Below are positions 28,995 to 58,244 of a stretch of DNA of 64,000 nucleotides, piece after piece. Each line of letters begins with the position of its first letter. Position 1 is the stretch's first letter. This DNA is from Hwanghaeella grinnelliae (GTDB taxonomy: Bacteria; Pseudomonadota; Alphaproteobacteria; UBA8366; Aestuariispiraceae). The stretch is from positions 1,178,421 to 1,242,420 of the forward strand of contig NZ_SADE01000002.1 in the NCBI RefSeq assembly GCF_004005845.1, read 5' to 3'. The notes beneath the pieces were generated by a model. It saw only the letters and a list, made by a program, of their open reading frames with translations, was not told where the DNA came from and searched no databases. Both the position numbers and the translations under genes were made by a program.

Positions 28995-29035
28995 GTCGGT
29001 ATCCTAGGATTAAGTGATCGTGAGAAGGAAAAGGG

Positions 29036-29602: not shown

Positions 29603-30618
29603 GGCGTGCCGTCCAAATCCCAGGCCAGTGCCGGTTTTGTCGTTTCACCCGTCCGCAAGGCTCGCTCGCAGGCATCCAGAACGGCCAGTACCCGCAATCC
29701 TTCAGCGGCGTCCGAGCGCGGCCTTGTGCCGTTCGTGATGCAGTCAAGGAAGTGCTGGCATTCGTTTCGAAGCGGTTCCGAGCGCTCATACGGGATGGGC
29801 GTCGCATCGGCTTTTTCGATCTCGGGAAGGCTTTCGTTCCAACCGATACGATGGTCATAGAGAACCAGTTTCCCGTCCTCGGCCTGTGTGTCGTCGAACA
29901 CCGCCATTCCCTTGGTACCGACGACGACAAGTTTCTGGTCTTTGAACGGGTGAAGCCAGGAGACGAAGATATGCGCTTGCACCCCGTCCGAAAAATCCAT
30001 GTGCGTCAGCGATGTGTCGGCGACCGGGGGATACAGCCAGGTGCCGCCATTGGAGACGATCCGGGACGGCATTTCGCCGATCAGGGATAGCAGCATCGAG
30101 ATATCGTGCGGCGCGAAAGACCAAAGGGCGTTTTCCTCGTTTCGAATGCGCCCAAGGTTCGTCCTGTTCGAATAGGCATACCGGATGTCGCCCAACCCGC
30201 CCTGCGCGACGAAATCTTGCAGCGCGATGAAAGCCGGATGATAGAGCAATAGATGGCCGACCATCAGGGTCAGGCCGCGCTCCTCCGCAAGCAGCCTCAG
30301 CTGTTTCCCCTCTTCCAAGTCGAGGCAGAGAGGCTTTTCGGCAAAAACATGCTTTCCGGACTGAAGGGCGGCGCGGGCGATCTCACCATGGGTCGCGCCG
30401 GGGCTGGAGATAACGACACCGTCGATATCCGGATCGTCCAGAATGGCCTGCAGGTCCGGTTGGGCCGCCACGCCGTCATACTGTGAAACCATCGCCGACA
30501 GTCTTTCGGTGTCCGGGTCGCAAACCGACCGCAGCGCGCCCAGAGCATGAAAATTGCGCACGTGGTTCTTACCCCAGCCACCCGCGCCGATAACCGCTAC
30601 ATTAGGCACTTTCTTCAT
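29599..30618 (-). CDS. Gfo/Idh/MocA-family dehydrogenase, WbpB-like
   Basis: 339 residues. The Rossmann motif is [12 protein letters not shown] near residue 8, the catalytic-lysine motif EKPLCLD follows, and a histidine lies in [15 protein letters not shown]. It matches the WbpB/WlbA type, which oxidises C3 of UDP-GlcNAc-uronate before transamination. It is translationally coupled on both sides (ATGA overlaps at 29599 and 30615). It is one of three Gfo/Idh/MocA proteins in the window and not closely like the one at 46860-47894. Confidence 0.85.
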
Positions 30619-41995: not shown

Positions 41996-43072
41996 CTAGT
42001 CAATATCCGACCAGGACAGGGGGGTTCCGCGCGGAAGATCCCGCCGCGCCTTCCGGCCGATTGCCGACTTTATGAATTTGGGTGCAAGCCCGCCGCCCGG
42101 TCGGATGGAGCGAACGTTATCCGCCGAAAGCGTATCGCCCGCCGAAATGTCCTGAACCACATACAAGGAGCGCCGAAGCCCTTTGGTTCCGGCCTCGCTA
42201 TCCGTCGTTTGATAGGACGGACGGCCGACCGCCGCGAACGCCTCATGGCTTGCGGTCACCATCGCCTCGAATTCCGCGGGCTCCAGCGAGAAGTCCGCAT
42301 CGGGACCGCCGTCGGACCGTTTCCAGGTCATGTGCTTTTCGATGACCGTCGCGCCCAGAGTCGTGGCCGCCACGGGTACGGCGGTGCCCAATGTGTGGTC
42401 CGACAGACCGACGGGAACACCGAAGGCCTGCGCCAGATGGGGGATGGTCGCCAGATTGCACTCGGCCACCGGTGTCGGATAACCGGAAACGCAGTGCAGC
42501 AGGCACATCGGAACATTGTCCGCCTTTGCAACGACCTCCACCGCGTCGGAGATCTCGCCAAGATCCGCCATCCCGGTGGACATGATCATAGGACGGCCCT
42601 TGGCGGCGACATACTCGATCAAGGGCAGGTCCACCAATTCGCAGGACGCGATCTTGTATATCGGCGGATCGAACTGCTCCAAGAAATCGACAGCCGTCGG
42701 GTCGAAGGGCGAGGAGAAGACCGGAATGCCGACCTGGGCACCCTTGTTGAATATCGCCTCGTGCCATTCCCAGGGCGTGTGCGCTTCCTGGTACAGTTCG
42801 TACAGGCTGCGTCCTTCCCAAAGGCCGGGCCCCAACACAAAACCGGGGCCGTCATGGTCAATGGTGATCGTATCGGCCGTGTAGGTCTGGATTTTTATGG
42901 CATCGGCACCCGTGTCCGCCGCGGCCTGCACAAGGTCCAGCATCCGGTCCAGCTGGCCCAGATGGTTGCCTGAAAGTTCGGCGATGATGAACGGGGGATG
43001 TTCCGGACCAACCGGTTTTCCGGCCAGTTCTATGGTGGATGGGGCAGAGGCAGGGGGGGAAACCGATGTCAT
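41996..43072 (-). CDS. pseI: Pseudaminic acid synthase
   Basis: 358 residues from ATG 43072. NeuB-family TIM barrel with IAELSGNHLGQLDRML at the substrate/metal end, LWEGRSLYELYQEAHTPWEWH, KIASCELVDLPLI and SDHTLG, then a C-terminal SAF antifreeze-like domain (GDTLSADNVRSIRPGGGLAPK). The SLYELYQEAHTPWEWH stretch is diagnostic for PseI within the family. It condenses 2,4-diacetamido-2,4,6-trideoxy-altrose with phosphoenolpyruvate to pseudaminic acid in the cytoplasm. It follows the PseG-like gene by 4 bp. Confidence 0.92.
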   Translation of the reverse strand: MTSVSPPASAPSTIELAGKPVGPEHPPFIIAELSGNHLGQLDRMLDLVQAAADTGADAIKIQTYTADTITIDHDGPGFVLGPGLWEGRSLYELYQEAHTPWEWHEAIFNKGAQVGIPVFSSPFDPTAVDFLEQFDPPIYKIASCELVDLPLIEYVAAKGRPMIMSTGMADLGEISDAVEVVAKADNVPMCLLHCVSGYPTPVAECNLATIPHLAQAFGVPVGLSDHTLGTAVPVAATTLGATVIEKHMTWKRSDGGPDADFSLEPAEFEAMVTASHEAFAAVGRPSYQTTDSEAGTKGLRRSLYVVQDISAGDTLSADNVRSIRPGGGLAPKFIKSAIGRKARRDLPRGTPLSWSDID

Positions 43073-43076
43073 GGTG

Positions 43077-44036
43077 CTATCCAATGCCGGCGCCGTTCGG
43101 CGCGGGTTGTGCGTCAAGTTGATTTTCCAGCCATTCGGCGACGCGAACCAATCCCAAACCATCAACGAGGTTCATGGCCCGGTCGCGCATGGCCGCAGCG
43201 ACGTCTGCATTCATTATGGTCTGAATCGTCCCAGGTAAACACCCGGGCTCAAAAGCCCGACCGGCGCCGGAGGACACCACCGTCTCCATCAAGAAATGCT
43301 GCGCGGCGTTGGTCTGGACCGCGATCACGGGTCGGCCTGCCGCACAGGCTTCGAACGCGGTGACACTGGCGCTTGTGACGACCAGCGTCGCCCATTCGAG
43401 CAGCGTCTGTAACCCGTCCGGGGCGTGCACATAGTCCAGTCGCGCCGCGGGCAGCGACGCGGGCAAGGTCGCTTCATGTTTGAAGAAGGGGCCGATCACC
43501 ACCGTCACGGTCCAATCCTGCGGAAGACCTTCACAGTCTTCCAAAACGCGTCGCGTCCAGTTCTGCGGGTCGCTGGCACCCAGTGTCACGAGCAGGTTCC
43601 TGGTTCCGGCCGAGAGTGGGTTCGATGCGGCGATCGCGGTGTAGGAGGGATCGAGCAGGGCAAAGGCCGGGCCGTTGAGGACCGCCGGTTTGCGCCATTC
43701 CTGGCCGGTGTAAAGGTTCCGGTTTGTGTTCTGATTGAGAATGGCGTCAGCGTGGAACACCGCATCCCCCAAATCATCGATCGCCAACACCTTGCGCGCC
43801 GGCCAACCCTCCTTCGCCAGGCCGTAGCCGTCGACGATGGCCCAGTCCCAGACTGCGTCGCGCCCAAGCGCTTCCGCCAGTTCCGCGTCGGTAAGGTCGC
43901 CGGGAAAGCCTTCAACGCGCGCGCCTGCCACGGGTTTTGGTGATGGCACCCCGCGGACCGCGACGCGGACGGTGTGGCCGCGCGCCGAAAGAACGGCGGC
44001 GAGACGCGAGGAGCGGCTGAAATGCCCCAACCCCAC
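43077..44036 (-). CDS. pseG: UDP-sugar hydrolase, PseG-like, with non-standard N-terminus
   Basis: At least 319 residues. The motif GLGHFSRSSRLA holds the catalytic-type histidine of PseG, and the C-terminal half has TLGASDPQNWTRRVL and VTSASVTAFEACAAGRP. It removes UDP from UDP-2,4-diacetamido-trideoxy-altrose before PseI. The only standard start in frame is GTG 44036, right at GLGH, but the frame upstream encodes FLFILEAGGDV, the expected first strand and loop of PseG. True translation therefore probably begins around 44063-44075, at a CTG or ATC codon, or the sequence has an error there. Confidence 0.82.
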   Translation of the reverse strand: MGLGHFSRSSRLAAVLSARGHTVRVAVRGVPSPKPVAGARVEGFPGDLTDAELAEALGRDAVWDWAIVDGYGLAKEGWPARKVLAIDDLGDAVFHADAILNQNTNRNLYTGQEWRKPAVLNGPAFALLDPSYTAIAASNPLSAGTRNLLVTLGASDPQNWTRRVLEDCEGLPQDWTVTVVIGPFFKHEATLPASLPAARLDYVHAPDGLQTLLEWATLVVTSASVTAFEACAAGRPVIAVQTNAAQHFLMETVVSSGAGRAFEPGCLPGTIQTIMNADVAAAMRDRAMNLVDGLGLVRVAEWLENQLDAQPAPNGAGIG

Positions 44037-44135
44037 GTCGCCGCCGGCTTCCAGAATGAACAGAAAAGTTCCGATCCGACCGGCTTTCCAGGTTTTCCGT
44101 GTCAGCGTGATGCCAAGACCGACAGTTCAGTGGCC

Positions 44136-45413
44136 CTACAGCAGCACGTAATGGCTCTGTTTTTCGAAAAAGTTCGACCGTTCGTCGTCGCTCGGCGGCG
44201 AATGAAGGAATGGGCGCGCATTTTCGATCATCGGAATGCGGGCTTCTTCGACCCCGTCCTCATTCCGGTGATTCGCGACGCTGTCCTTCGTTACCCATTC
44301 GCCGGCATCGTTCTTGGCCCAGATCGACGGGTCGCGCATCGGCTCGATCATGGCGAGCAGTTCGTCCTCGGTCATCCCGGAGGCTTCGAGGAACAGGTCC
44401 AGGTCAAACGGGCGGACATGGTCATGTTTTTCGACCATATCGATTGCCTGTTCACGGGTCATCCGGCCATGGCGGACTTCGTTACTGGCGTCGTCGGTCG
44501 CACGGCCGTACCCGAATTTGAGGTATTTCAGATAATCGTGCAGGCCGTTGGCATGGATGTCGTCCAATTTGGCGTAGGTGTTGAACGTACGTTCCCGCTC
44601 AGGGGCGGTTGCGAAGTTCAGGTTGTTGATCACGAATTCCGCCTGATCGCGGCCGTCCCAGGGAAGGAAGTTCGACATATAAATGCCGCGAACGCCGACC
44701 CGCTCCAGGTCCTCATCGGAGGGATAGAAGAAGGGGGCCAGGTCGTAGCGTGTCAGCGGGCAATCGTCCCGCTGCAGCAGGTCTTCCGGCTCAAACCCCC
44801 GCATGGAGTGCTCTTGGCGCTTCTTCTTCGTGAATTCGACGAAATCGTCGTCGTTATACATCCCGACCAGTTCGGAAAAGCCTTCTTCGCCCCAAACGAC
44901 AAGCGGCACATCGTGCTGCACCGCCGCCCGCATCGGGAAGGTCATGATCCCGGCGTGATAGTGCCAGGTCACATCCCCAACAAGCTTCAGCATGTATTTG
45001 GCGATCCGGATCGCCGAGCCCGGCGCGGTGGAGTAGCGGACCAGATTGCAATCCGTCTGTTCAATCAGGTTCGCCAGATTTCGGATGCCCAGCGGTGTGT
45101 TGAAGGTGTGGTTGTAAGACACCAGCAACGGGTTCAACCCGTACTTTTCCTTTACGACATAGACCTGATAGGTGGAGTCCTTGCCGCCCGAGACCGGGAT
45201 GATGCAGTCGTAGGGATTGCCTTTCGCGCGTTGCTTCTCGGCCGCCTCGGTCAGGATCTTCCGGAACATCTTTTCGCGTGAGGCCCAGTCGACTTGTTCT
45301 TTCAAAGTCGTCCGGCTTTCAAAGCTGCGGCAACCCGAACAGATGCCGTCATCGTCCAGAATGATCCCGGGCTTTGCGTTGGCCGGGTATACGCAACGCT
45401 TACAATATTCCAT
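44136..45413 (-). CDS. N-acetyl sugar amidotransferase 1 (PseA/WbpG-like)
   Basis: 425 residues from ATG 45413. The zinc-type cysteines are C4, C7, C25 and C28, then the PP-loop VSGGKDS at 74-80 for ATP-dependent adenylation. The family converts a sugar N-acetyl group to an acetamidino group using ammonia. HisF- and HisH-like genes follow immediately upstream in transcription order, supplying that ammonia. Its place beside PseG and PseI suggests formation of 7-acetamidino-pseudaminic acid, as by PseA in Campylobacter (inference). Confidence 0.88.
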   Translation of the reverse strand: MEYCKRCVYPANAKPGIILDDDGICSGCRSFESRTTLKEQVDWASREKMFRKILTEAAEKQRAKGNPYDCIIPVSGGKDSTYQVYVVKEKYGLNPLLVSYNHTFNTPLGIRNLANLIEQTDCNLVRYSTAPGSAIRIAKYMLKLVGDVTWHYHAGIMTFPMRAAVQHDVPLVVWGEEGFSELVGMYNDDDFVEFTKKKRQEHSMRGFEPEDLLQRDDCPLTRYDLAPFFYPSDEDLERVGVRGIYMSNFLPWDGRDQAEFVINNLNFATAPERERTFNTYAKLDDIHANGLHDYLKYLKFGYGRATDDASNEVRHGRMTREQAIDMVEKHDHVRPFDLDLFLEASGMTEDELLAMIEPMRDPSIWAKNDAGEWVTKDSVANHRNEDGVEEARIPMIENARPFLHSPPSDDERSNFFEKQSHYVLL

Positions 45414-45423
45414 TAAACTGCTC

Positions 45424-46248
45424 CTAGTAGGGCTGGTACGTCGGCCGCCTTGGCATATCGACCTTATAGAAGGTGGAATCGCGGACCCAAAGGCCCTGCG
45501 CGGCCATGTGCTCCTTGGCCTTTTTCGTGCTGTGTTCTGTGTAGTGAAAGATGTTCCCGGCGGCAACGGCATCGGCGCCGCCAACCTCAATTCCTTCGAC
45601 AAGGTGGTCCCAATTCGCGACGCCGCCAAACGCGATCACGGGGATCGGGGATACCGCGGTCACACTCTTGATGAGGGACAGGTCATAGCCCCGCTTGTCG
45701 CCGTCATGCTCGATGTTGTTGAGGAGTATCTCCCCCGCGCCGCGTTGCGCCGCTCGAAGCACCCAGGTATTCACGTCCTCGCCGGTCTTTTCGCGGCCGC
45801 GCGCGATAACCGCTTCATAACCCGATGGCATGTCGGGGTTCGGCGCGGCATCCACGGAAACTACGACGCATTGCTTGCCGAATGAACCGGCGACGTCTTC
45901 TATCAGGCTGTCCGACTGGTAAGCATGTGTGTTCAGAACCACTTTGTCGGCGCCGGCCCGGGTGTATTCCCTGACCTTGTCCAGGTCACGGATCTTGCCG
46001 CCGACGGATAGCGGAACAAAACAGCGGCGCGACAGGCCGTGCACGACCTCAAGGAAATGGTCCAGATAGGAATCGTCGGCCGAAATCTCCAGAACGCAGA
46101 TCTCATCGACGGCCCAGGAATTAAAGAAATCCACGGCCGTGAAGGCGTTTCCAACCATGTTGGTGGGCCGAAACCTCCGGGTCTGAACCACGTTTCCGCG
46201 ATAGCACAAAAGCGTGGCGATAAGCCTGTGTTTGGTCGCTACAGTCAT
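45424..46248 (-). CDS. HisF-like subunit of amidination cassette 1
   Basis: 274 residues with the HisF barrel (CFVPLSVGGKIRDLDKV, AGADKVVLNT, VVVSVDA, IPVIAFGGV). The catalytic aspartate at the HisF Asp11 position is replaced (LIATLLCYRG in place of IIPCLDVKDG; L14), while the second one in SVDA is kept. It therefore should not make imidazole glycerol phosphate but could dock HisH and conduct ammonia to the amidotransferase. No other histidine gene is nearby. The C-terminus is about 20 residues longer than typical HisF. Confidence 0.88.
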   Translation of the reverse strand: MTVATKHRLIATLLCYRGNVVQTRRFRPTNMVGNAFTAVDFFNSWAVDEICVLEISADDSYLDHFLEVVHGLSRRCFVPLSVGGKIRDLDKVREYTRAGADKVVLNTHAYQSDSLIEDVAGSFGKQCVVVSVDAAPNPDMPSGYEAVIARGREKTGEDVNTWVLRAAQRGAGEILLNNIEHDGDKRGYDLSLIKSVTAVSPIPVIAFGGVANWDHLVEGIEVGGADAVAAGNIFHYTEHSTKKAKEHMAAQGLWVRDSTFYKVDMPRRPTYQPY

Positions 46249-46251
46249 GGC

Positions 46252-46872
46252 TCAGATCTCTAGAAAATTTTGAATCAGCTTCATGCCGGCCAGCTGTGAT
46301 TTCTCAGGATGGAACTGGGTCGCGGAGATGTGGTCTTTTTCCACGGCCGCGGCGAAAGGATAGCCGTAGTCGCAGATTCCCGCGACCCAACTGTCGTCCG
46401 TACCGCCGACCGGCGCGGAATAACTGTGGACAAAGTAGAAGTCGGACTCTTCCGCCAGATCGTTGAAAAGCCGGCTTTCTTTGCTTTTCCTGACGGCGTT
46501 CCAGCCGATATGCGGCACCTTGGGCTTTCCAGGGCCTTCCGGAAACTTGGTGACGGTTCCCTTGATCCATCCCAGGCCGGGTTCGACGCCTTCCTCGCTG
46601 CCTTCATACAGGAACTGCATCCCGACGCAGATACCAAGATAGGGCGTTTTCTTGTCCAGGACCGTTTCGGCCAGCGCTTCTTCATGCCCGCGCCGGCGCA
46701 GTTCGCGTATCCCAGCATCGAACGACCCGACGCCCGGAAGAACGATCTTGTCGGCCCCTTTCAACTCGCTTCCTGCCTCGGCCACGCTGACGGATATTTC
46801 GAAACACTCCAACGCGTTCAGCACGGATCGCAGATTCGCGAACCCATAATCAACGACGACTACCGATTGCAT
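46252..46872 (-). CDS. HisH-like glutaminase of amidination cassette 1
   Basis: 206 residues. Complete class I glutaminase triad: C82 in GICVGMQ, H188 and E190 in QFHPEKS. The oxyanion segment PGVGSFDAG is present. It releases ammonia from glutamine for the neighbouring HisF/amidotransferase pair. The three genes lie 3-10 bp apart in the order HisH, HisF, amidotransferase. Its start overlaps the end of the following Gfo/Idh gene by 13 bp. Confidence 0.9.
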   Translation of the reverse strand: MQSVVVVDYGFANLRSVLNALECFEISVSVAEAGSELKGADKIVLPGVGSFDAGIRELRRRGHEEALAETVLDKKTPYLGICVGMQFLYEGSEEGVEPGLGWIKGTVTKFPEGPGKPKVPHIGWNAVRKSKESRLFNDLAEESDFYFVHSYSAPVGGTDDSWVAGICDYGYPFAAAVEKDHISATQFHPEKSQLAGMKLIQNFLEI

Positions 46873-47894
46873 GAATGTGAAGCCTCCCTTGAGAATTCGG
46901 CCCCCAGGGCCACCGAGCTGCCCAGCGATTGCTTGCAGGTTTCCGCCAGCGCAACCACATGGGCGCCGTCGTCGACGCTCGCCAAACGATCGTCATCGGT
47001 GACCCCGCCGTCCACCAATGCCGTGAAATTCTTTGCCATGTCGAGATATGGCTGGTTGGTGTCTATCCCCGCGGATTCGAACAATGTCTTTCGGCTTTTG
47101 CTGTCGGCGAAGGTAACCCGGCATGCTTCCGGCGCCTTGCCCAGACTTTCCCAAAGGATCGTACCCTGTGTCCCGACAATTTCGCAGCCGCGTGACTTCG
47201 GGTTGCGCAAATAGTCCAGATGAATGCTGGACCGCATGCCCGTGGCATGTGTCAACACGATGGACGCCCAGTCCTCGACATCGATATCAAGCGTTCCGAT
47301 CCTGCCAAACGTACCGGCACAGCCCGTTGCCTGGCCAAAGAACGAACACAGGTAATCCATTTCGTGAATCGCGTCGTAGATCACACCGCCGCCTTCGCTG
47401 GCATGGGCGCAATAGAGTTTGCGGTAGTCCCCGTCGGCACGCATGGCAGGCAAGTAATTACCGTAATGGGCGCGGGCGAAATGCGGCTCGCCGATGCTGT
47501 CGAGGGCCTCACGAAGCGACGCGACGCCCGGATGAAACCGCATGTTGGAGACAACGCGGACAAGCGTGTCGGATTGCTGCGCCCGATCCTGAAACCGTTT
47601 TGCTTCATTGGCCGACAGCGTCAGGGGCTTTTCGATGAGAAGGGCGCGAACCCGGTCCAGCAGCTCCAGCGCAAGCGGAACATGAAACCGGTGGGGGACG
47701 GCGATGACGGCCATATCGGGTTGCCAGGCCAAGGCTTCGTCTAGGGTCGCGAAGGCTCGCGCACCGGTTTCTTGCGCGGCTTGATCGCGCCGAACCGCGT
47801 CCTGGTCGATCACGGCAACCTCACAGCCCGCAGCGGCGAAATTGCGGCTGTGCCGCAGACCGATCGAACCGCACCCGATGACAATACACTTCAT
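46860..47894 (-). CDS. Gfo/Idh/MocA-family sugar oxidoreductase
   Basis: 344 residues. Rossmann motif IVIGCGSIGLRHSRNF, lysine motif EKPLTLSANEA, and YDAIHEMDYLCSFFG with the catalytic-type histidine. It lies between cassette 1 and the CMP-sugar transferase, so it probably oxidises or epimerises a precursor of one of the nonulosonic or amino sugars. Related genes occur in sialic/legionaminic-type clusters. It has only family-level similarity to the WbpB-like protein. Confidence 0.8.
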   Translation of the reverse strand: MKCIVIGCGSIGLRHSRNFAAAGCEVAVIDQDAVRRDQAAQETGARAFATLDEALAWQPDMAVIAVPHRFHVPLALELLDRVRALLIEKPLTLSANEAKRFQDRAQQSDTLVRVVSNMRFHPGVASLREALDSIGEPHFARAHYGNYLPAMRADGDYRKLYCAHASEGGGVIYDAIHEMDYLCSFFGQATGCAGTFGRIGTLDIDVEDWASIVLTHATGMRSSIHLDYLRNPKSRGCEIVGTQGTILWESLGKAPEACRVTFADSKSRKTLFESAGIDTNQPYLDMAKNFTALVDGGVTDDDRLASVDDGAHVVALAETCKQSLGSSVALGAEFSREASHSCNR

Positions 47895-47900
47895 CTTAGC

Positions 47901-48578
47901 CTACCGGGATGACGCCACGGCGGTGGCGACCACAAGATCTTCCCGCGTGTTGATGTCGATGGAACGGGACTGCGGCATCACATGCCCACGCAGCCCCGGT
48001 CCATAGAAGGTTCTGTGTTCTTTGAACGCCGTGGCATTCACCGAATAGGTACTGCCATTGTCGACCAGCAAGGTCGGCAGGTCACTTTCACGTTTGGACA
48101 CCAAATCGGGCCACATCGGCTCCAGCGTTCCGGCCGGTGTGGCCCGCAGGGCTTGGTGCGGCGGCAGCGGGTAGGTGCTGACGGCCATTGCGAAACCGCA
48201 GCCCTCTACACCAAGAAGCCCGTGCACCGCCGCGATGTCGTCGCCCGTGCGAAGCGGCGCTGTCGCGTACAGACAGCATAGTTCGGTGACGGCCTCCGAC
48301 CGGTCGTCGAAGAATTGCATCGCATGCAGGCAGACATCCGTGACCCGGGCGCTGTCGCTGCCAAGGTCCTTGGGTCTGGCGATGATCTCCGCACCGAACT
48401 TTGCCGCGACATCGATGATTTCATCATCGTCGGAAGACACGACAACATGGTCGAATATCCCGCAATTCTGCGCCGCGGCGATGGTATGCGCGATGATCGG
48501 TTTCCCGAGGAAATCGGCGATGTTCTTCCTGGGCAACCGTTTCGAGCCGCCGCGGGCAGGGATGAGGGCGAGTTTCAT
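47901..48578 (-). CDS. pseF: CMP-nonulosonic acid cytidylyltransferase (PseF-like)
   Basis: 225 residues. The nucleotide-binding signature LIPARGGSKRLPRKNI opens the protein, followed by VSSDDDEIIDVAAKFGAEIIARP and LYATAPLRTGDDI, the NeuA/PseF pattern. It activates the nonulosonic acid with CTP in the cytoplasm. Only one such gene is visible although two NeuB-family synthases are encoded, so it may serve both products or the second product may be activated elsewhere. Confidence 0.9.
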   Translation of the reverse strand: MKLALIPARGGSKRLPRKNIADFLGKPIIAHTIAAAQNCGIFDHVVVSSDDDEIIDVAAKFGAEIIARPKDLGSDSARVTDVCLHAMQFFDDRSEAVTELCCLYATAPLRTGDDIAAVHGLLGVEGCGFAMAVSTYPLPPHQALRATPAGTLEPMWPDLVSKRESDLPTLLVDNGSTYSVNATAFKEHRTFYGPGLRGHVMPQSRSIDINTREDLVVATAVASSR

Positions 48579-48617
48579 GGACGCCAGATATGAGGGATGA
48601 CGAGGGTGGAAAACCGG

Positions 48618-49694
48618 TTAGGCAAGATCGCCCGGCATTACCTTGTGACCGGCGGGCAGATCGGTGCGCAGTGACTGTTCGCCCAAAGCTTCGGCTTGGT
48701 CGGGGGCAAGACCGCCGCCCGGACGCCGATAGTCGAGCGCGCAATCCTTCAGCTTCCGGCCTGCCGGCGTATCTTCGGCAAGATAGGTGCTGCGGCGCGC
48801 GATTTCCCGCTTTTCCAATTCCACCGGCTGCATGATCCGGCGGCTGCTGCCCAGCGCCGTCGGCAGGTCGCGCATCAATTGCACGAAGGCCGCCATGTCC
48901 TGCGGTTCAAGGGAGAAGATATGCTCGATGCTGCGCGTCATGCGATCCTTGGTAATCGTCTTTTCGACCAGGTTCGCGCCAAGTGCGACGGCGGCGACAT
49001 CCATATCCCAGCCGGGCGAATGGTCTGAGAAGGCGACAGGATAACCCAGCAGGGTCTTCAGCGACGGAATGATATTGAGGTTGATCCCCTCCAGACGGGC
49101 GGGATAACCCGACGGACAATGGTGGATAATGACGTTGTCGTTGCCTTCCGAGCGGATCACGTCGATCGCGCGTTCGATTTCGCCGATCGTCGAGTTGCCT
49201 GTGTCCAGTTGCAAGCACATGCCTGTTCGGGCTGCTTTGCGGATCAGCGGGAAATGGTTCACATCGCCGGATGCAATCTTGATCGAAGCGCAACCAAGCG
49301 ATTCGACAAGGTCGACCTCATCCGGGAAGCCGATGGTTGCGAAAAAGGCGAGATTGCATTCATCCGCGCAAGCCTTGACTTCGCGCCATTCGTCATTCGA
49401 AAGGGCCCGGCGTTTCAGCAGGTCGTAGAGCGGTTCTTGAACCGTTTCCGTCTTGCCCGTTTCCCGATCGACGAGAATTTCATAGGTGAACAGGGCGGAT
49501 TTGTCCTCGACGACGCGGTCCGGATCGAAGATCTGGAATTTCACGGCGTCCGCGCCTGCACGGGCGGCGTGCCGAATCAGATCCTTCGCGCTTTCCACGC
49601 CTTCATGGGTCGGTCCCGCTTCGTAGGTCACGAAGATCGGCTCCCCGTCGCCGACCTTGCGTTCGCCGAAAGCGACATACTGGTGATCGTTCAT
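48618..49694 (-). CDS. Second, divergent NeuB-family synthase
   Basis: 358 residues. The NeuB barrel and C-terminal SAF domain (GRKLKDCALDYRRPGGGLAPDQ) are present. The usual IAEIGxNHxG opening reads VTYEAGPTHEG and the loop SDHTLG reads SDHSPG, and a unique insertion EILVDRETGKTETVQEP lies near residue 75. It lacks the PseI-specific stretch. It should condense PEP with some amino sugar to give a nine-carbon (or similar) keto acid. The substrate is not clear; it lies next to a GNAT and the second amidination cassette. Confidence 0.82.
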   Translation of the reverse strand: MNDHQYVAFGERKVGDGEPIFVTYEAGPTHEGVESAKDLIRHAARAGADAVKFQIFDPDRVVEDKSALFTYEILVDRETGKTETVQEPLYDLLKRRALSNDEWREVKACADECNLAFFATIGFPDEVDLVESLGCASIKIASGDVNHFPLIRKAARTGMCLQLDTGNSTIGEIERAIDVIRSEGNDNVIIHHCPSGYPARLEGINLNIIPSLKTLLGYPVAFSDHSPGWDMDVAAVALGANLVEKTITKDRMTRSIEHIFSLEPQDMAAFVQLMRDLPTALGSSRRIMQPVELEKREIARRSTYLAEDTPAGRKLKDCALDYRRPGGGLAPDQAEALGEQSLRTDLPAGHKVMPGDLA

Positions 49695-49698
49695 TTCC

Positions 49699-50250
49699 CT
49701 ATTCTCCTGAACCGGTGGACTGGCTGGCGAACCTGTCCATCAAAACCAAATCATCCCAATGATCATCGCACCAGAAATGGGCAGGCCGGATGGCCTTTTC
49801 TTCAAATCCCGCTTGGCGGAACGCTTTGCGCGAACCGACATTGCGCGCGTAGCAGCCGGCCGTCAGCTTTGCGAGCTTTAGGTCTTGGAATGCATAGTTG
49901 GCAAGCCCGGCGATCGCTTCGCGGCCGAACCCTTTTCCCCAAGCGGATTTTTCACCAATCAGAATACCGATTTCACCGCGCTTGTGATGCGTTGAAATCG
50001 GGCCGATCTTGATATTGCCGATATGCTGACCGTCTTCCGCGAACAGACCGAAAAGCTGTGTATCTTCCCGGCCCCGGCATTGCCCGACAAAACGCCTTAC
50101 ATCGTCCATCGTGTTTTCGGCAAACCGGGATTCAAGGAACCGGTTGATCTCGGGGTCGTTCAACCACGAGACATACGCGTCCGTGACGTCGTCCGGTTCA
50201 AGTTCCCGCAGACGCAGGCGCGCCGTTTCGATGATGCTTTGCATTGGCAT
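49699..50250 (-). CDS. GNAT N-acetyltransferase (RimJ/PseH-like)
   Basis: 183 residues from ATG 50250 (ATG 50244 possible). It opens with ETARLRLRELEPDDVTDAYVSWLNDPEI, and the acetyl-CoA site is around GEKSAWGKGFGREAI. GNATs of this type in pseudaminic loci (PseH) acetylate the 4-amino group made by PseC. It is the only clear PseH candidate between pseB and pseF; the GNAT at 60993 is the alternative. It lies 1 bp from the second HisF gene. Confidence 0.8.
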   Translation of the reverse strand: MPMQSIIETARLRLRELEPDDVTDAYVSWLNDPEINRFLESRFAENTMDDVRRFVGQCRGREDTQLFGLFAEDGQHIGNIKIGPISTHHKRGEIGILIGEKSAWGKGFGREAIAGLANYAFQDLKLAKLTAGCYARNVGSRKAFRQAGFEEKAIRPAHFWCDDHWDDLVLMDRFASQSTGSGE

Positions 50251-50251
50251 G

Positions 50252-51010
50252 CTACAACCGGACCGGCAGCTTCTCGTGCCGCATATAGTGTTTGATCTTG
50301 CGAATATTGTTGTCCGAGAAGACGAGCAAGGTGCCAAGCGCGACGGCATCGACCCCTGCGGACAAGGCTTCGGCAACTTGCGACAAAGTGCCTGCGCCGC
50401 CCTCCAGAATAACCGGAACGGACACACGGGTTCGGACCTTGTCGTACAGGTCGGTGTTCAGGCCTTCCCGAGTCCCTTCGCGCGACACATCCATAACCCG
50501 AAGTTCCCCGGCGCCCAGATCGATCACCTGGTCCAGCCAATCTTCCAACGAAAGATCGCGTGTCGGGCGGCCGGTCAGATGGTCGTACAGCAGATAGGTC
50601 CCGTCCTCGTTCCAGACATCGATGCCGATGACCGTGGCCTGACTTCCGTATCGGTGCGCGATTCCGTCGATCAGGGCCGGATTGGAACGCGCCGTGGAAG
50701 TGAGGCAGATCTTGTCCGCACCGCTCTTGAAACACCGGTCGGCGATATCGAGGGAGGAAATACCGCCCCCTACCGTCAGGGGGACGAAGCATTCCAGCGC
50801 CGCCGCCGCGATCGTTTCGAAATCCGGTTCGCGGTTTTCTTTGCTGGCGTCGATATCCAGCAGGAATATCTCGTCCGCACCCTGCGCATTGTAGGCCCGC
50901 GCCGTCGTCTTGGCGCTGCCGGCATCTCGGTACTCCGCATAGCGCGTGCCCTTAACCAACCGGTTCTTGGACAGCAGCATGCTGGGAATAATTCTGCAAA
51001 GTTCGCGCAT
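50252..51010 (-). CDS. HisF-like subunit of amidination cassette 2
   Basis: 252 residues from ATG 51010, typical HisF length. Barrel motifs FVPLTVGGGISSLDIA, SGADKICLTS, VIGIDVW, VPVILEGGAGTLSQVAEAL are present. As in cassette 1, the HisF Asp11 is lost (IIPSMLLSKNRLVKG; L12) and the second aspartate in GIDV is kept. It is not a close copy of the cassette 1 HisF. Its predicted role is ammonia transfer from the adjacent HisH to amidotransferase 2. Confidence 0.9.
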   Translation of the reverse strand: MRELCRIIPSMLLSKNRLVKGTRYAEYRDAGSAKTTARAYNAQGADEIFLLDIDASKENREPDFETIAAAALECFVPLTVGGGISSLDIADRCFKSGADKICLTSTARSNPALIDGIAHRYGSQATVIGIDVWNEDGTYLLYDHLTGRPTRDLSLEDWLDQVIDLGAGELRVMDVSREGTREGLNTDLYDKVRTRVSVPVILEGGAGTLSQVAEALSAGVDAVALGTLLVFSDNNIRKIKHYMRHEKLPVRL

Positions 51011-51020
51011 CGTGTGTTCG

Positions 51021-51647
51021 CTAAGGCTTCCAGGCCAGAAAGGACTCGAGGAATTGAATGCCGTCGTTTTGGGATTTTTCGGGGTGGAATTGCGTTCCGA
51101 CGACCGTATCGAAACCGATGGCGGCAACGCATCCATCGAATGTGTCGAGGGTAGCGGTCGATTGCGCCAACGGCGTGCCGAACAGGCCGAAGGAATGGCA
51201 GAAATAATAGACGCCTTTGGGGCTCATCATATTGGACAGCGGGTTCTCAGCGTTAACCTCAATCGCTTTCCATCCGATGTGAGGCACCGTCTGGCGCTCC
51301 GCGGCATGGGATTTCAGGTTTTGAACCGTTCCGGGAACCCAGCCAAAACCGGCGCCCGCGCCGTACTCTTCCAGTTCTTCCGCCAAGACCTGCATGCCGA
51401 TGCAGATCCCCAGGAAGGGCCGGGCCTTGTCGAAAACCATTTCACGTAGCGCATCCATCAGCCCGCTGGAACGAAGCCGCGCCATCGCGGTGCCGGCTGC
51501 CCCCACACCGGGAAGCACAAGCCGGTCCGCCTTGGCGACCTCGTCCGGGGTGCTGATCACTTCTACATCAGCACCCGCGTACCAGATAGCGTTGGACACG
51601 GAGGAAATGTTGCCCGCGCCATAGTCAATGACGGATACGACACTCAC
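51021..51647 (-). CDS. HisH-like glutaminase of amidination cassette 2
   Basis: 208 residues with the full triad: C82 (GICIGMQ), H188 and E190 (QFHPEKS). It overlaps the end of amidotransferase 2 by ATGA and precedes the HisF gene by 10 bp. The order amidotransferase, HisH, HisF differs from cassette 1, arguing against a recent tandem duplication. Confidence 0.9.
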   Translation of the reverse strand: MSVVSVIDYGAGNISSVSNAIWYAGADVEVISTPDEVAKADRLVLPGVGAAGTAMARLRSSGLMDALREMVFDKARPFLGICIGMQVLAEELEEYGAGAGFGWVPGTVQNLKSHAAERQTVPHIGWKAIEVNAENPLSNMMSPKGVYYFCHSFGLFGTPLAQSTATLDTFDGCVAAIGFDTVVGTQFHPEKSQNDGIQFLESFLAWKP

Positions 51648-52843
51648 CGTGAAGCTTCTCTTTTGCTGTCCAATTCCATATCACCGATGACGCGCGGCCA
51701 CTGGTCATAGTCCCATGGCTTCCAATTGGCGCAATTCGACTGGCATTCCTCGCAGGACGGCGTCTTGTGCGGCTCGACCGCATGCGGCTCGATCAAGTCC
51801 ATGAAATGCTGTTCCGTGATACCGAGGAATTCTAGGAACACATCGAGCGCGGCCGGGCGGCGACCGTCATAGTCCTCCACCAATTGTGCGCCTTCGTCCC
51901 GTGTCAGCCGGTTGTTCCGGATATCGATCGAGACAAGATGAGTGGTCCGGCCGAAGCCGCGTTTCAGGTGTTTGATGTAGTCGCGCACCCCTTGCATGAA
52001 ACACTCGATCTTTTCGTAATCGTACATCGGCGGAATGCCCTCGACCTGGTCGCCTTTCCAGCCGAGTTCGTCCTTGATGAGTTTGACCTGTTCCTTGACG
52101 TCCCAGGGGATGTAGGACCCAAGCAGGATAGACCGTGTGCCCTGTTTCCGCAGGTCGCGCATTGGCGGATAGGTGTAGGGCAGCATGTCGCGTTCGGTAA
52201 CGGGATAGTCGGAAATCGTGTTGTCCAGCATCCCGACGAGATCTTCTGCGTTCATGCCCAGATTGACGAAGGAATTGAACCGGCGTTCGTCCACTTCCTC
52301 ATGCTCGTCATAGCTGTAGAAGGACGCATATTCGGCCGTGGGTTCGCCCCATACCAGAAGCGGAATGTTCTGCCACAGCGACACCCACATCGGGTAGGCG
52401 AAGATGCCGGTATGACAATGCCAGCAGAAATCGCCGCGCCGTTTGAGCGATTCATACATCAGCTTCCGGACAACCTGCCAATTCGGCGTGAAGTGGTGCA
52501 CGTCGACGCCCAGGGTCCGGAAGGTGCGCAGCGCGTTTTCCTGCAGCGTGGGACGCAGGAAGCCGTGGTCGAAACGAACGACCAGCGGCTTCAATTTCAT
52601 TTTCTTGACCAGGTACCAAAGCGTGAAGGTCGAGTCCTTCCCGCCGGAAAACGGGACGATACAGTCGTACATTCCCTTGCCACGGAAGTCCGCGACGATC
52701 TTGTCCAGCTCTCCGCGGCGATGATCCCAGTCGATCTTCGTGTGTTTGAATTCAACCTGTCGGCAGACGGAGCAGACTCCCTCTTCATCGAACTGGAGGG
52801 ACTCCGCGGTTTCCGGCATCAGACACTTCGTGCAGTAGCGCAT
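51644..52843 (-). CDS. N-acetyl sugar amidotransferase 2 (WbpG/PseA-like)
   Basis: 399 residues. ATG 52843 is chosen because GGAG lies eight bases ahead; ATG 52855 overlaps this ribosome-binding site. Zinc-type cysteines C4, C7, C24 and C27 and the PP-loop FSGGKDS at 65-71 are present. A C-terminal cysteine group (CEECQSNCANW) is unique to this copy and could bind metal. It shares the fold and N-terminus of amidotransferase 1 but diverges strongly elsewhere, so it likely works on a different sugar. Confidence 0.88.
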   Translation of the reverse strand: MRYCTKCLMPETAESLQFDEEGVCSVCRQVEFKHTKIDWDHRRGELDKIVADFRGKGMYDCIVPFSGGKDSTFTLWYLVKKMKLKPLVVRFDHGFLRPTLQENALRTFRTLGVDVHHFTPNWQVVRKLMYESLKRRGDFCWHCHTGIFAYPMWVSLWQNIPLLVWGEPTAEYASFYSYDEHEEVDERRFNSFVNLGMNAEDLVGMLDNTISDYPVTERDMLPYTYPPMRDLRKQGTRSILLGSYIPWDVKEQVKLIKDELGWKGDQVEGIPPMYDYEKIECFMQGVRDYIKHLKRGFGRTTHLVSIDIRNNRLTRDEGAQLVEDYDGRRPAALDVFLEFLGITEQHFMDLIEPHAVEPHKTPSCEECQSNCANWKPWDYDQWPRVIGDMELDSKREASR

Positions 52844-52869
52844 AACGTTCTCCATGGCACTTTGGGAGC

Positions 52870-54066
52870 CTAGGGCTCTAGGACAGACTCGATTGACCGG
52901 ACGACATATTCCGCGTCGTCGTCGGTCATGCTCGGAAATAGGGGGATACTCAGCGCGCGCCGGTAATAGGCGAGCGACCCCGGATATTGGTTACTGGCGG
53001 CATCGCATCGGAAGTGCGGCTGCAGGATCAGCGGGATGTAGTGAACCTGGGTCCCGACGCCGCGTTCCCGCAATGCGTTCATCACTGCCGCACGGGACTT
53101 GCCGATGGCATCGAAGTCGATCAGCGTCACATACAGATGCCAAGCGGGCTGGTTCGCGGCCGTTCTGCCAAACGGTTTAACCGGCGCAGGGGACGTGCTG
53201 AACGCCCGGTCATAGAGGTCGGCCAGCGCCCGCCGGCGTTCTACGAACTGCGGCAGTTTCGCAAGCTGACTTTCCGCCAAGGCGCACTGAATGTCCGACA
53301 GGCGGTAGTTCAAGGCCGGCTCGGCAAGCTCGTAGTACCACGGGTTCACGGCCCCGGTTTCGGCGTCGAGCGCAAGATCCTTGTAGGTGAACTCGTCGCC
53401 TGTGCGCACAATGCCGTGGTTGCCGAACCGCCGCATTTTTTGCGCCAACTTGGCGTCGCTTGTCGTGACCGCTCCGCCTTCGCCGGCTGCGATTGTCTTG
53501 ACCGGATGGAAGGAAAACGTCTCGACATGGGTGTGGGGACAAGCACCCACCCGCCAACCTTCGTCCGACACGGTGCCCAGTGCATGACAGGCATCGGCCA
53601 GAAGATAGGCGCCGACCGAATCCGCCAATGCCCGCATTGCCGCCATGTCTTCCATCTGGCCCGCCAGATGCACCGGCGTTATGCAGCGTACCGGAAAGCT
53701 CGCCCTGGATATGGCTTCTTGCGCGGTTTCCGGGGTCATCAGACCCGTGTCCGGGTCAACGTCGGCGAAGACGACTTCCGCGCCCAAAAGGTCGGCCGTA
53801 CTTGCCGTGGCGGCGAAGGTCGTGGTCGGAACGATTACGGAGGTTTCGGGCCCGACACCGAAGGCGTGGTAGGCCATGTGCAACGCGGCGGTTCCGTTCG
53901 CGCAGGCGATGGCATGGTCTGCGCCGACGGCTTTGGCCAGGGCGGCCTCGAAAGATGCGACGTTGGGCCCCGTGGTGAGATACGGGGAGGTCAATACACC
54001 AACGACGGCATCGATATCGGCTTGGTCGATCTGTTGCCGGCCATAGGGAAGGAACGCGCGTTCCAT
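52870..54066 (-). CDS. pseC: UDP-4-amino-4,6-dideoxy-altrosamine-forming aminotransferase
   Basis: 398 residues. PLP lysine K190 (SFHPVKTIAAGEGG), aspartate D158 (LLADACHALG). The opening LPYGRQQID and TSPYLTTGPNV are hallmarks of PseC. It transfers an amino group to C4 of the PseB product in the second step of pseudaminic-acid synthesis. It is separated from pseB by 1 bp, the usual pseB-pseC order. Confidence 0.93.
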   Translation of the reverse strand: MERAFLPYGRQQIDQADIDAVVGVLTSPYLTTGPNVASFEAALAKAVGADHAIACANGTAALHMAYHAFGVGPETSVIVPTTTFAATASTADLLGAEVVFADVDPDTGLMTPETAQEAISRASFPVRCITPVHLAGQMEDMAAMRALADSVGAYLLADACHALGTVSDEGWRVGACPHTHVETFSFHPVKTIAAGEGGAVTTSDAKLAQKMRRFGNHGIVRTGDEFTYKDLALDAETGAVNPWYYELAEPALNYRLSDIQCALAESQLAKLPQFVERRRALADLYDRAFSTSPAPVKPFGRTAANQPAWHLYVTLIDFDAIGKSRAAVMNALRERGVGTQVHYIPLILQPHFRCDAASNQYPGSLAYYRRALSIPLFPSMTDDDAEYVVRSIESVLEP

Positions 54067-54067
54067 T

Positions 54068-55153
54068 TTAGTATCCTAGGGAATTCAACAGCGTGCGGGT
54101 TTCCTCAAGTGACAGCCATTCGGTGTTGGTGTCGCTGGCAAAGGAGAACCGTGGGTCGACTTCCCGCGCGCCGGAGGCGAAATACTCTTCGCGGCTGGAT
54201 TCACGCCACAATTGCATCAGCGGCATGATCACATAGATATCGTCGAGTTCGAGCGTCGCCCGCGCGTCGTCTTCGGTAATCATGATCTCATGCATTTTTT
54301 CGCCGGGCCGGATGCCGATGTCTTCCATGGGCAGGTCCGGTGCGATCGCCGCGCACAGGGTTTTGATATCGACGCTGGGAATCTTGGGCACGAAAATTTC
54401 GCCGCCCTGCATACGCGCGAAGGAAGAGAGGACCATGTTCACGCCCTGACGCAATGTGATCCAAAAACGCGTCATATCCGGGTGCGTGATGGGCAGATGG
54501 GTCGCGCCGTTATTCACCAGGCGCTTGAACAGGGGGACGACGCTGCCGCGCGACCCCATGACATTGCCGTACCGCACGACCGAGAAGCGCGGCCCGTTCC
54601 GCCCGCCGAGGGCGTTTCCGGCAACGAAGATCTTGTCCGAGGCGAGCTTGCTGGCGCCGTAGAGGTTGATCGGGTTGGCGGCCTTGTCCGTCGATAGCGC
54701 GACAACCTTTTTGACGCCGCAGTAAATCGAGGCATTCACCACGTTTTCCGCGCCGTGCACGTTGGTCCGAATGCATTCGAACGGATTGTATTCAGCGATC
54801 GGCACATGCTTCAGCGCGGCCGCATGGACCACATAATCGACCCCGCGCATGGCCATTTTCAGCCGTTCCAAGTCGCGGACATCGCCGATGAAGTAGCGCA
54901 GGAACGGGTGTTCCGTATCGGAGAAGACTTGCGCCATCTCGTATTGTTTTAGCTCATCCCGCGAGAAAATGATCAGCCGCTCCGGGGTATACCGTTCGAT
55001 CACGCTCTTCACGAAGGCATGGCCGAAGGACCCGGTCCCACCCGTTACAAGAATATTCTTGCCGTTGAGATCCATTTCGGGATTGGTGAAGCTCCGCATT
55101 TTGCCGCCGAAGCCGTCTTCCAGGACCTTATCCAGGTCGCGATCTCTATCCAT
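54068..55153 (-). CDS. pseB: UDP-GlcNAc 4,6-dehydratase (inverting), first pseudaminic-acid enzyme
   Basis: 361 residues. NAD motif GGTGSFG at 38-44, the modified catalytic set STDKA at 154-158 and Y165-x3-K169. FlaA1/PseB enzymes use the Asp-Lys of STDKA for 5-inverting dehydration of UDP-GlcNAc. The N-terminus is about 25 residues longer than usual; ATG 55153 is kept because GAGG lies upstream, while ATG 55075 would give the standard length. It opens the Pse block after a terminator hairpin, so it likely has its own promoter in 55154-55254. Confidence 0.93.
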   Translation of the reverse strand: MDRDRDLDKVLEDGFGGKMRSFTNPEMDLNGKNILVTGGTGSFGHAFVKSVIERYTPERLIIFSRDELKQYEMAQVFSDTEHPFLRYFIGDVRDLERLKMAMRGVDYVVHAAALKHVPIAEYNPFECIRTNVHGAENVVNASIYCGVKKVVALSTDKAANPINLYGASKLASDKIFVAGNALGGRNGPRFSVVRYGNVMGSRGSVVPLFKRLVNNGATHLPITHPDMTRFWITLRQGVNMVLSSFARMQGGEIFVPKIPSVDIKTLCAAIAPDLPMEDIGIRPGEKMHEIMITEDDARATLELDDIYVIMPLMQLWRESSREEYFASGAREVDPRFSFASDTNTEWLSLEETRTLLNSLGY

Positions 55154-57216: not shown

Positions 57217-58227
57217 TTAGATGATCCGAAGCTTTGACTGGTTCAAGGGACCCCAATCCCCGAGTTCGGGGTTCAGGGGGTGAACTTTTTCGAAGCATCC
57301 CTTCAGACAATTGTGGCAAAGCGTGCCTTTCAAATCGTCGTTCATGTGGCGGCGTCGGAAATCACGGAACCGGTCGCCGTAAAATGCGTCGCCTACGCTC
57401 ATTTTGTTCAGGTCTTCGATGGCAAGACTGTTCTGATAGTCGTTGCAGCAAACGCGAAGATGACCTTCTGCCGTGATGTTCAACTGGTTGAATGGGATGA
57501 CGCAGGTATCCGGCATGTTCTCGTCCAGCGGCAGGTTCGGCATCTGCCCGGAAACATTGACGGCGGGGTTTATGTAGAACTCGTCTATCCGGCCCTCGAA
57601 CCGTTCGATGAGTTCAGGCAGCGAGTCCGCGTTCTTCGGTACCTGAACGAACGAGATATAGACAAACATCTTACGGTCGAGGGTTTTCCGATGCTCAAGC
57701 ACGAACTCGATATTCTCGACGACCTTGTCGAAATGGTCTTGTCCATGGACCAGCGCGTAGGTTTCCCTGTTGCCGCCATTCACCGAGAATTTGAGTGAGT
57801 CGACGCCTGCGTCGATGACCGTTTTCAGGCGCTCCTTGCTCGGCAGAGATCCGTTCGTCGACACATATACATAGTCGTATCCGACCTCTTTGGCGTTTCG
57901 GACATGCAGGTCCAGCTTCTTGCAGGTGAATGGTTCCGCGCCGCCATACAGGCCGGCCTCGCGGGCGCCAAGATCATAAGCTTCCTTGAGAGCGCGCTTG
58001 AGAAACTCCGGATCGATCAGTTTTCCGCGCCGGGTGGTCAACGGATACGGGCAGAAGGTGCAAGCATGGTTGCAGATATTGGCCACTTCGACCAAGACGC
58101 TTTTCGGGAAGCTCGGCGTTTCACTCAGGACGGCCGATTGAATCAGCGTCTTGTCCCGGTTCCGCAGGCGGCTTTCCGTCGCGTCGGTGGATTTTTCGTT
58201 GTCTAGATTTATTGATTGATCGGGCAT
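57217..58227 (-). CDS. Radical SAM protein with SPASM-like C-terminal cysteines
   Basis: 336 residues. The [4Fe-4S]-SAM motif is C52-x3-C56-x2-C59 (CNHACTFC). Then GGAEPF, VSTNGSLPS and the C-terminal cysteine set CVIPFNQL, RVCCNDY and LCHNCLKGC, enough for one or two auxiliary clusters. SPASM proteins modify peptides, but members in surface-polysaccharide loci are thought to modify sugars. It sits between the flippase and a capsule-type transferase, supporting a glycan role. The chemistry is unknown. Confidence 0.85.
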   Translation of the reverse strand: MPDQSINLDNEKSTDATESRLRNRDKTLIQSAVLSETPSFPKSVLVEVANICNHACTFCPYPLTTRRGKLIDPEFLKRALKEAYDLGAREAGLYGGAEPFTCKKLDLHVRNAKEVGYDYVYVSTNGSLPSKERLKTVIDAGVDSLKFSVNGGNRETYALVHGQDHFDKVVENIEFVLEHRKTLDRKMFVYISFVQVPKNADSLPELIERFEGRIDEFYINPAVNVSGQMPNLPLDENMPDTCVIPFNQLNITAEGHLRVCCNDYQNSLAIEDLNKMSVGDAFYGDRFRDFRRRHMNDDLKGTLCHNCLKGCFEKVHPLNPELGDWGPLNQSKLRII

Positions 58228-58244
58228 TATTTTCTTCCTCCGCG

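Follow-up and report, generated by a model that had tools for sequence, protein, structure and literature searches.

Two diverged amidination cassettes and a divergent NeuB-like synthase in a pseudaminic acid gene run of Hwanghaeella grinnelliae

Gene content of the locus

The window analysed here, a stretch of 64,000 nucleotides from Hwanghaeella grinnelliae (contig NZ_SADE01000002.1, positions 1,178,421 to 1,242,420), contains a run of 14 minus-strand genes that leads from PseB to the pseudaminic acid synthase PseI and includes two sets of genes for an N-acetyl sugar amidotransferase (WbuX), a HisH glutaminase and a HisF-like subunit. On the minus strand the order is PseB, PseC, WbuX1, HisH1, HisF1, a GNAT acetyltransferase, NeuB2, a PseF-like synthetase, a Gfo/Idh/MocA oxidoreductase, HisH2, HisF2, WbuX2, a PseG-like protein and PseI. 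With refined starts for HisF1 (51010), GNAT (50244), WbuX2 (45413) and PseI (43072), two neighbours overlap and the remaining gaps are below 40 bases, except at the unclear start of PseG. A sequence-only reading of this DNA had proposed that the amidination genes occur twice in one such run, and profile matches confirm this. The two sets have separate ancestry, and the second is co-inherited with NeuB2, a divergent relative of the nonulosonate synthases.

Cassette 1 is transcribed in the order WbuX1-HisH1-HisF1 (52855-50252, minus strand), as against HisH2-HisF2-WbuX2 in cassette 2 (46872-44136, minus strand). WbuX1 (51644-52855) and WbuX2 (44136-45413) score 344.6 and 322.9 bits in profile searches with TIGR03573 (cut-off 203.2), and both contain the SGGKDS motif and two CxxC pairs. 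A tetracysteine and a PP-loop SGGxDS are named as features of the NASAT/WbuX family, whose Legionella pneumophila member is PDB 8wex, in the available portion of PMC10607449; profile and motifs together place both proteins in this family. HisH1 (51021-51647), the GTG start of which overlaps the WbuX1 stop, and HisH2 (46252-46872) reach 185 and 229 bits with TIGR01855 (cut-off 105.4), and both retain the catalytic Cys and His-Pro-Glu (GIC and HPEK in HisH1). HisF1 (50252-51010) and HisF2 (45424-46248) score 197-227 bits with the models for HisF, WbuZ and AglZ/HisF2, under all three cut-offs; with WbuZ (TIGR03572, cut-off 299.7) and AglZ/HisF2 (NF038364, cut-off 310) the scores are 216.6 and 196.8 bits for HisF1 and 227 and 198 bits for HisF2, and the models assign neither protein to these families. 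In both proteins Leu replaces the catalytic Asp of the PCLD motif, which is kept in the two histidine-operon HisFs compared (those of E. coli and of this genome). Judging by this loss and by their context, HisF1 and HisF2 should function like the WbuZ/AglZ-HisF2 proteins. All six cassette proteins keep their motifs and none appears decayed. The possibility that the cassettes are housekeeping histidine genes was rejected, as the genome's own HisF lies elsewhere (C2:587004, 367 bits, over cut-off).

Among the loci compared (genomes and loci carry our G and L numbers), three combine WbuX and HisF matches in a single open frame of 683-745 aa (L039, 1249-3333; L040, 5017-7068; L041, 14906-17143), and this sharing of one frame supports the notion that the two proteins work together. 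The genome also has a third WbuX (C1:1001265-1002305; L004, 9265-10425), whose neighbours are genes that resemble flagellins by eye, an AsnB-type protein (TIGR01536, 354.6 bits) and a protein of 653 aa that matches no NCBIfam model. No HisH or HisF match was found within 20 kb around it, and the AsnB-type glutaminase may replace HisH/HisF at this locus. The clade of this third WbuX is also represented in G001 and G007.

Ancestry of the two amidotransferases

The sequence-only reading had further described the sets as differing in internal order and as clearly diverged. This holds true: between-set identities are 33.6% for WbuX, 39.7% for HisH and 30.0% for HisF, as measured over whole open reading frames in which WbuX2 and HisF1 still had extra N-terminal residues. 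A quick tree built from 190 WbuX proteins puts WbuX1 in a clade of 66 rows (clade A), with a Shimodaira-Hasegawa-like approximate likelihood ratio test (SH-aLRT) support of 100, and WbuX2 in a clade of 36 rows (clade B, SH-aLRT 99), within which it belongs to a sub-clade of 9 rows linked to NeuB2 (SH-aLRT 99). Near-copies and fragments shorter than 290 residues (280 for the NeuB tree discussed below) were left out of the trees; among these fragments were the WbuX2 and NeuB2 pieces of G636 and the broken NeuB2 of G186. Seven alignment columns split the two clades almost cleanly, for example Phe193, present in 66/66 members of clade A, versus Arg in 35/36 of clade B. In a careful tree of 33 rows the pairing of WbuX1 and WbuX2 as sisters is rejected (approximately unbiased test, p-AU 4.97e-53), and with it a recent duplication of one cassette. 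The amidotransferases of the two cassettes are not recent paralogues but have separate ancestry; the opposite outcome, recent paralogues with identical active sites, is borne out neither by the clades nor by the residues fixed in them.

NeuB2, a divergent member of the NeuB family

NeuB2 (48618-49694) contains the NeuB domain (PF03102, 210 bits, cut-off 22.1) but remains under the equivalog cut-offs of TIGR03569 (231.7 against 399.65 bits) and TIGR03586 (197.1 against 340.25 bits). Twelve full-length members, the window copy counted, share 50-64% identity with that copy, the next NeuB among 128 being 37% identical, and they form a discrete clade with a support of 100/100. An AlphaFold2 model built from 12 sequences, with a mean predicted local distance difference test score of 88.7, matches NeuB structures 1xuu (Z 34.4, 339 residues, root-mean-square deviation 8.4) and 6ncs (Z 35.0, 262 residues, root-mean-square deviation 2.0).

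At seven positions the NeuB2 proteins have fixed, or nearly fixed, residues that nearly all other NeuBs do not have. In an alignment to 1xuu (nmNeuB) these are T29 (Asn in 110/115 other NeuBs; nmNeuB N29), A119 (Ser in 96/116; S109), D164 (Ser in 109/116; S154), A221 (Gly in 114/116; G211), T246 (His in 114/116; H236), E257 (Asp in 115/116; D247) and H191, which is found in 11/12 NeuB2 proteins against Leu in 98/116 others and faces a gap in the alignment. The changes at nmNeuB H236, S154, D247, N29, G211 and S109 are fixed in 12/12 NeuB2 members, which therefore all have Thr in place of the near-invariant His. nmNeuB H236 is reportedly a Mn2+ ligand. Going by the model, NeuB2 is an intact NeuB-fold protein whose altered residues are conserved.

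The ligand contacts given in the accessible text of PMC6795526 include E25, Q55, T110, K129, Y186, S213, H215, E234, R314, F112, N184, N74 and F288, and H236 is not listed there; the first nine are kept in the window NeuB2, and F112 and N184 are changed. A residue rule described in the portion of PMC7371886 available to us, Gly for Neu/Leg and Phe for Pse, does not settle the case of NeuB2, in whose members that site is occupied by G, S, A or Q. In a search of the literature on nonulosonic acids with amidotransferase, HisF or HisH, the coverage of which leaves out most subscription journals, no title or abstract start describes NeuB2.

Genomic associations of the two cassettes

Gene maps of the comparison loci consist of best blastp matches to window proteins and are not annotations. 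A scan of named genomes for WbuX, with the best 80 matches kept, yielded 79 loci. Among the matches listed, WbuX1-type enzymes come from many phyla, and their loci often hold PseB, PseC, WbuX, HisH, HisF, GNAT, a class III aminotransferase and PseI; no NeuB2 match was found in the WbuX1-type pseudaminic loci L105, L107, L108, L111, L117, L123 and L157. Four further WbuX1-type loci, L142 (Legionella feeleii), L143, L150 and L154, are apparently legionaminic by weaker matches.

The sub-clade of WbuX2 comes only from genomes with NeuB2. Its sources are eight genomes (G000, which is this genome; L099/G782; G783, on two contigs; G351; G155; L176/G784; L177/G785; G569), and all eight have a NeuB2 orthologue, as opposed to none at E <= 1e-60 in the seven tested genomes with another clade-B WbuX (G135, G599, G774, G605, G702, G649, G787). 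In G636 one short contig carries a NeuB2 fragment and, 3.0 kb away, a fragment of WbuX2 with 70% identity. In a sample of 398 genomes of the phylum, in which each protein was searched separately, WbuX2 of at least 50% identity occurs in G000, G155 and G351, all three with NeuB2; the chance that both of the other WbuX2 genomes should fall among the five other NeuB2 genomes is 1.3e-4. NeuB2 itself (E <= 1e-80) is present in 6/398 genomes, four of which have WbuX, against 41/398 overall (Fisher p = 0.0013, or 0.008 without this genome). The second set is thus co-inherited with NeuB2, and the suggestion of the sequence-only reading that a second NeuB-like synthase is the partner of one set finds support here. 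In 11/13 other NeuB2 genomes (the exceptions being G155 and G005) there is also a synthase with the PseI motif KIASFE, which indicates that NeuB2 is usually present in addition to PseI and not in its place.

The arrangement of these genes varies. G351 has a single run PseB-PseC-NeuB2-HisH-HisF-WbuX2-PseF-PseG-PseI. L099, from a Pseudolabrys metagenome-assembled genome, combines both modules and NeuB2 in one locus with another gene order (WbuX1 70%, WbuX2 74%, NeuB2 62% and PseI 55% identical), and G783 and G636 have both modules and NeuB2 on separate contigs. Both modules with NeuB2 are therefore found in four genomes, this one included, and that they are kept together despite the shuffled order argues for function. 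In G785 and G784 WbuX2 is the single WbuX, which implies that it does not need WbuX1. G186 has the run of G351, with PseB, PseC, PseF, PseG and PseI, but lacks the amidination genes there and has no WbuX anywhere in the genome; two stop codons interrupt its NeuB2 (C1:3905046-3905780; L218, L281). This looks like a loss of amidination accompanied by decay of NeuB2, though it is a single case and G252, with an intact NeuB2 and no WbuX found in its 550 contigs, points the opposite way.

The sequence-only reading had also offered a WbpBED-type sugar as the target of one set, and a WbpB/D/E-like trio is indeed present in the window at 27870-30618. Near it lies a DUF7033 protein (32597-33997) that resembles the VimE deacetylase (89.5 bits, cut-off 440). 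Cassette 2 might accordingly amidinate the 2,3-diamino sugar of this trio, in the manner of P. aeruginosa O5 WbpG; WbpD/WbpE-like genes share their locus with a second set in L149 and L151, and in L214 a trio occurs close to NeuB2 and WbuX2. Yet the second WbuX of L149 groups with LpNASAT and the one in L151 has its best match in E. coli WbuX, cassette 2 is about 14 kb from the trio and sits within the pseudaminic run, and six of the seven strict WbuX2 loci (L099, L176, L177, L214, L216, L219, L274) have no trio, L214 being the only one that does. We regard this pairing as very improbable.

Frequency of doubled amidination genes

WbuX (E <= 1e-40) is present in 41 of the 398 genomes, and six of these 41 have two copies within 20 kb (G000, G419, G429, G474, G489 and G515). 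Among 144 relatives, 57 have a WbuX match, 50 of them over the cut-off, and eight carry a pair of over-cut-off copies no more than 20 kb apart on one contig; a ninth genome, G033, has a pair in which one copy is partial. A set of 142 loci, each 9 kb or longer, includes 139 with WbuX; 21 of these have two or more, and nine of the 139, the window included, carry two each of WbuX, HisH and HisF. This last count is not a frequency, as the loci were chosen around WbuX, in part for the pairs in them, and six known duplicates were removed manually. For fair counts the 398-genome samples should be taken. A strict pairing of clade-B WbuX was rejected, since G135, G079 and G137 each have a single WbuX, which is of clade B. 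Doubling is uncommon yet not new, because the Campylobacter jejuni island has PseA and PtmG for two sugars, according to the part of PMC13317340 at hand. The statement of the sequence-only reading that loci with this chemistry usually show one set was therefore overstated, and the notion that two sets are exceptional is weakened by the counts in the relatives, the 398-genome sample and the chosen loci alike.

That doubled WbuX is not rare among carriers (6/41) would also suit redundancy of the two sets, or an idle set, where a cassette acquired by horizontal transfer duplicates an existing function. However, all six proteins keep their motifs, the combination of both modules with NeuB2 recurs in the four genomes mentioned above, and the two WbuX clades differ at fixed residues; redundancy thus appears improbable.

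Functional interpretation

We give about an even chance to the explanation that the two amidination modules lead to two differently amidinated nonulosonic acids, with WbuX1 acting on the PseI branch and WbuX2 linked to NeuB2. The chemistry, the products and the nitrogen that is amidinated are predicted here from gene content, motifs, ancestry, co-inheritance and the changes in NeuB2. The mechanism of the WbpG-HisH2-HisF2 family is the model for both modules. HisH would liberate ammonia from glutamine, and HisF, with its cyclase residue lost, would hand the ammonia on; WbuX would activate an N-acetyl group with ATP and replace the oxygen by nitrogen, which yields an acetamidino group. Module 1 (WbuX1-HisH1-HisF1) would amidinate the pseudaminic acid branch from PseB-PseC-GNAT-PseG-PseI-PseF, and module 2 (HisH2-HisF2-WbuX2) would work with NeuB2, a separate synthase subfamily that usually accompanies a normal PseI. 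The flanking genes suggest that the products are probably destined for surface polysaccharide.

Several observations weigh against this explanation. The window genes scanned include a single PseB, PseC, PseG and PseF for two synthases, which leaves the second backbone without an obvious source in the window. That NeuB2 makes a nonulosonic acid is itself a prediction, as it has lost a residue that reportedly serves as a metal ligand. The WbuX tree was built without authentic PseA, PtmG or WbpG sequences. In the sample driven by NeuB2, WbuX lies within 8 kb of it in only 3/6 genomes; across all 14 NeuB2 genomes met by any route the count is 11, a figure inflated by the eight that were first met via amidinase searches, and one in which G636 is counted on a 140.9-bit WbuX fragment at a contig end. 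Besides G252, there is G275, where the only WbuX lies on a different contig from NeuB2, and in G005 and G788 only WbuX1-type enzymes accompany NeuB2. NeuB2 is thus not strictly tied to amidination, nor to WbuX2 alone.

The single hexose pathway in view also leaves room for one nonulosonic acid with two amidines. WbuX1 and WbuX2 would act on the C5 and C7 N-acetyls of a single pseudaminic acid; NeuB2 would condense the amidinated hexose with phosphoenolpyruvate while PseI takes the plain one. One hexose pathway and one PseF for two synthases would fit this scheme, as would the presence of NeuB2 beside amidinases of both types, and the Asp fixed at the nmNeuB Ser154 site in 12/12 NeuB2 proteins could pair with a cationic amidine. 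It is nevertheless unlikely, given that WbuX2 is the sole WbuX of G785 and G784, that the name of PseA, CMP-Pse5Ac7Am acetamidino-synthase, as it stands in the accessible part of PMC13317340, suggests a late amidination on the CMP-sugar, and that a literature search found no paper with a term for doubly acetamidino nonulosonic acids ("diacetamidino" or similar), only "acetimidoylamino" being matched.

Tentatively, NeuB2 could represent a new, apparently unstudied synthase subfamily dedicated to amidinated substrates, amidination preceding the condensation with phosphoenolpyruvate and the metal/substrate site being rebuilt for a cationic amidino-hexose. The rebuilding would comprise the changes of nmNeuB His236 to Thr, Ser154 to Asp and Asp247 to Glu, and the enzyme would perhaps be metal-free, for which the metal-independent KDO8P synthases offer a parallel. 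The intact NeuB2 of G252 speaks against such a dedication, as does the naming of PseA as acting at the level of the CMP-sugar in the available text of PMC13317340.

Acetamidino groups give otherwise acidic surface sugars a positive charge. The NeuB2 subfamily, with its co-inherited amidinase sub-clade and fixed active-site changes, provides a concrete enzyme for asking at what stage the amidine is introduced and how many of them one sugar can bear. Methylophilus aquaticus (L177), whose run has a single cassette, is a simpler test bed than the 14-gene run studied here.

Pathway genes and neighbouring genes

Among the pseudaminic pathway genes, three products exceed the cut-offs of their profiles: PseB, an inverting UDP-GlcNAc 4,6-dehydratase (54068-55153; TIGR03589, 511 bits, cut-off 407.75), the aminotransferase PseC (52870-54066; TIGR03588, 434.9 bits, cut-off 423.5) and PseI (41996-43072; TIGR03586, 471.2 bits, cut-off 340.25). 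The others remain under theirs, namely the PseF-like CMP-sugar synthetase, by a small difference (47901-48578; TIGR03584, 199.8 bits, cut-off 205.7), the PseH-like GNAT acetyltransferase (49699-50244; PF13302, 90.5 bits; PseH model 41.2 bits, cut-off 93.1) and the PseG-like UDP-sugar hydrolase (43077-44036; TIGR03590, 99.4 bits from profile position 14, cut-off 153.55), whose open reading frame is without its N-terminus and whose start lies upstream of 44036. Within 43077-44160 the conserved N-terminus of PseG has no ATG, GTG or TTG, and the frame is open upstream of the GTG at 44036. At a reported C2-specificity site the window's PseI has Cys (KIASCE), in contrast to the Phe (KIASFE) of the rows that share at least 44% identity with it.

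The Gfo/Idh/MocA oxidoreductase of the run (46860-47894; PF01408 and PF22725) and a class III aminotransferase resembling glutamate-1-semialdehyde aminomutase (37484-38788) have matches in many nonulosonate loci, and jointly they could add a further amino group; no paper on triamino nonulosonic acids was found in the literature search. Upstream of the run, a radical SAM/SPASM protein (57217-59762) has relatives near other WbuX or NeuB2 genes (L170, L214, L217), in L170 together with the 505-aa protein.

Comparison with known systems

The C. jejuni flagellar island resembles the window in having two amidinases, PseA and PtmG, for pseudaminic and legionaminic acid, as stated in the accessible portions of PMC13317340 and PMC13130089. 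It differs in being flagellar and in having a full legionaminic pathway, whereas the window combines NeuB2 with two pairs of HisH and HisF, and none of its 28 proteins scanned with NCBIfam exceeds a LegB, LegC or LegG-type cut-off. The island presumably has one hisH/hisF pair.

Closer in gene content are the single-cassette loci L105 and L123, in which PseB, PseC, WbuX, HisH, HisF, an acetyltransferase, a class III aminotransferase, PseG and a synthase occur together, and the O-antigen locus of L. pneumophila serogroup 6, for which the part of PMC3694923 available gives CapD, DegT, HisH, HisF, an acetyltransferase, a cytidylyltransferase, an aminomutase, PseG and NeuB, and in which the "LPS biosynthesis protein" (LPS, lipopolysaccharide) is probably the WbuX. 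All three differ from the window in having one set only and no NeuB2 match.

The three-protein kit itself is that of WbpG-HisH2-HisF2 in P. aeruginosa O5 and of the WbuX set in E. coli O145, where the protein annotated as AglZ/HisF2 has Leu at the catalytic Asp, as do both HisF proteins of the window. P. aeruginosa WbpG and E. coli WbuX act on other sugars, going by the substrates given in the portion of PMC10607449 at hand, and E. coli WbuX belongs to a distant clade of 6 rows in the WbuX tree. Likewise NeuB2 shares the fold and many substrate-contact residues with the NeuB/PseI/SpsE family and departs from it at the six nmNeuB sites changed in 12/12 of its members.

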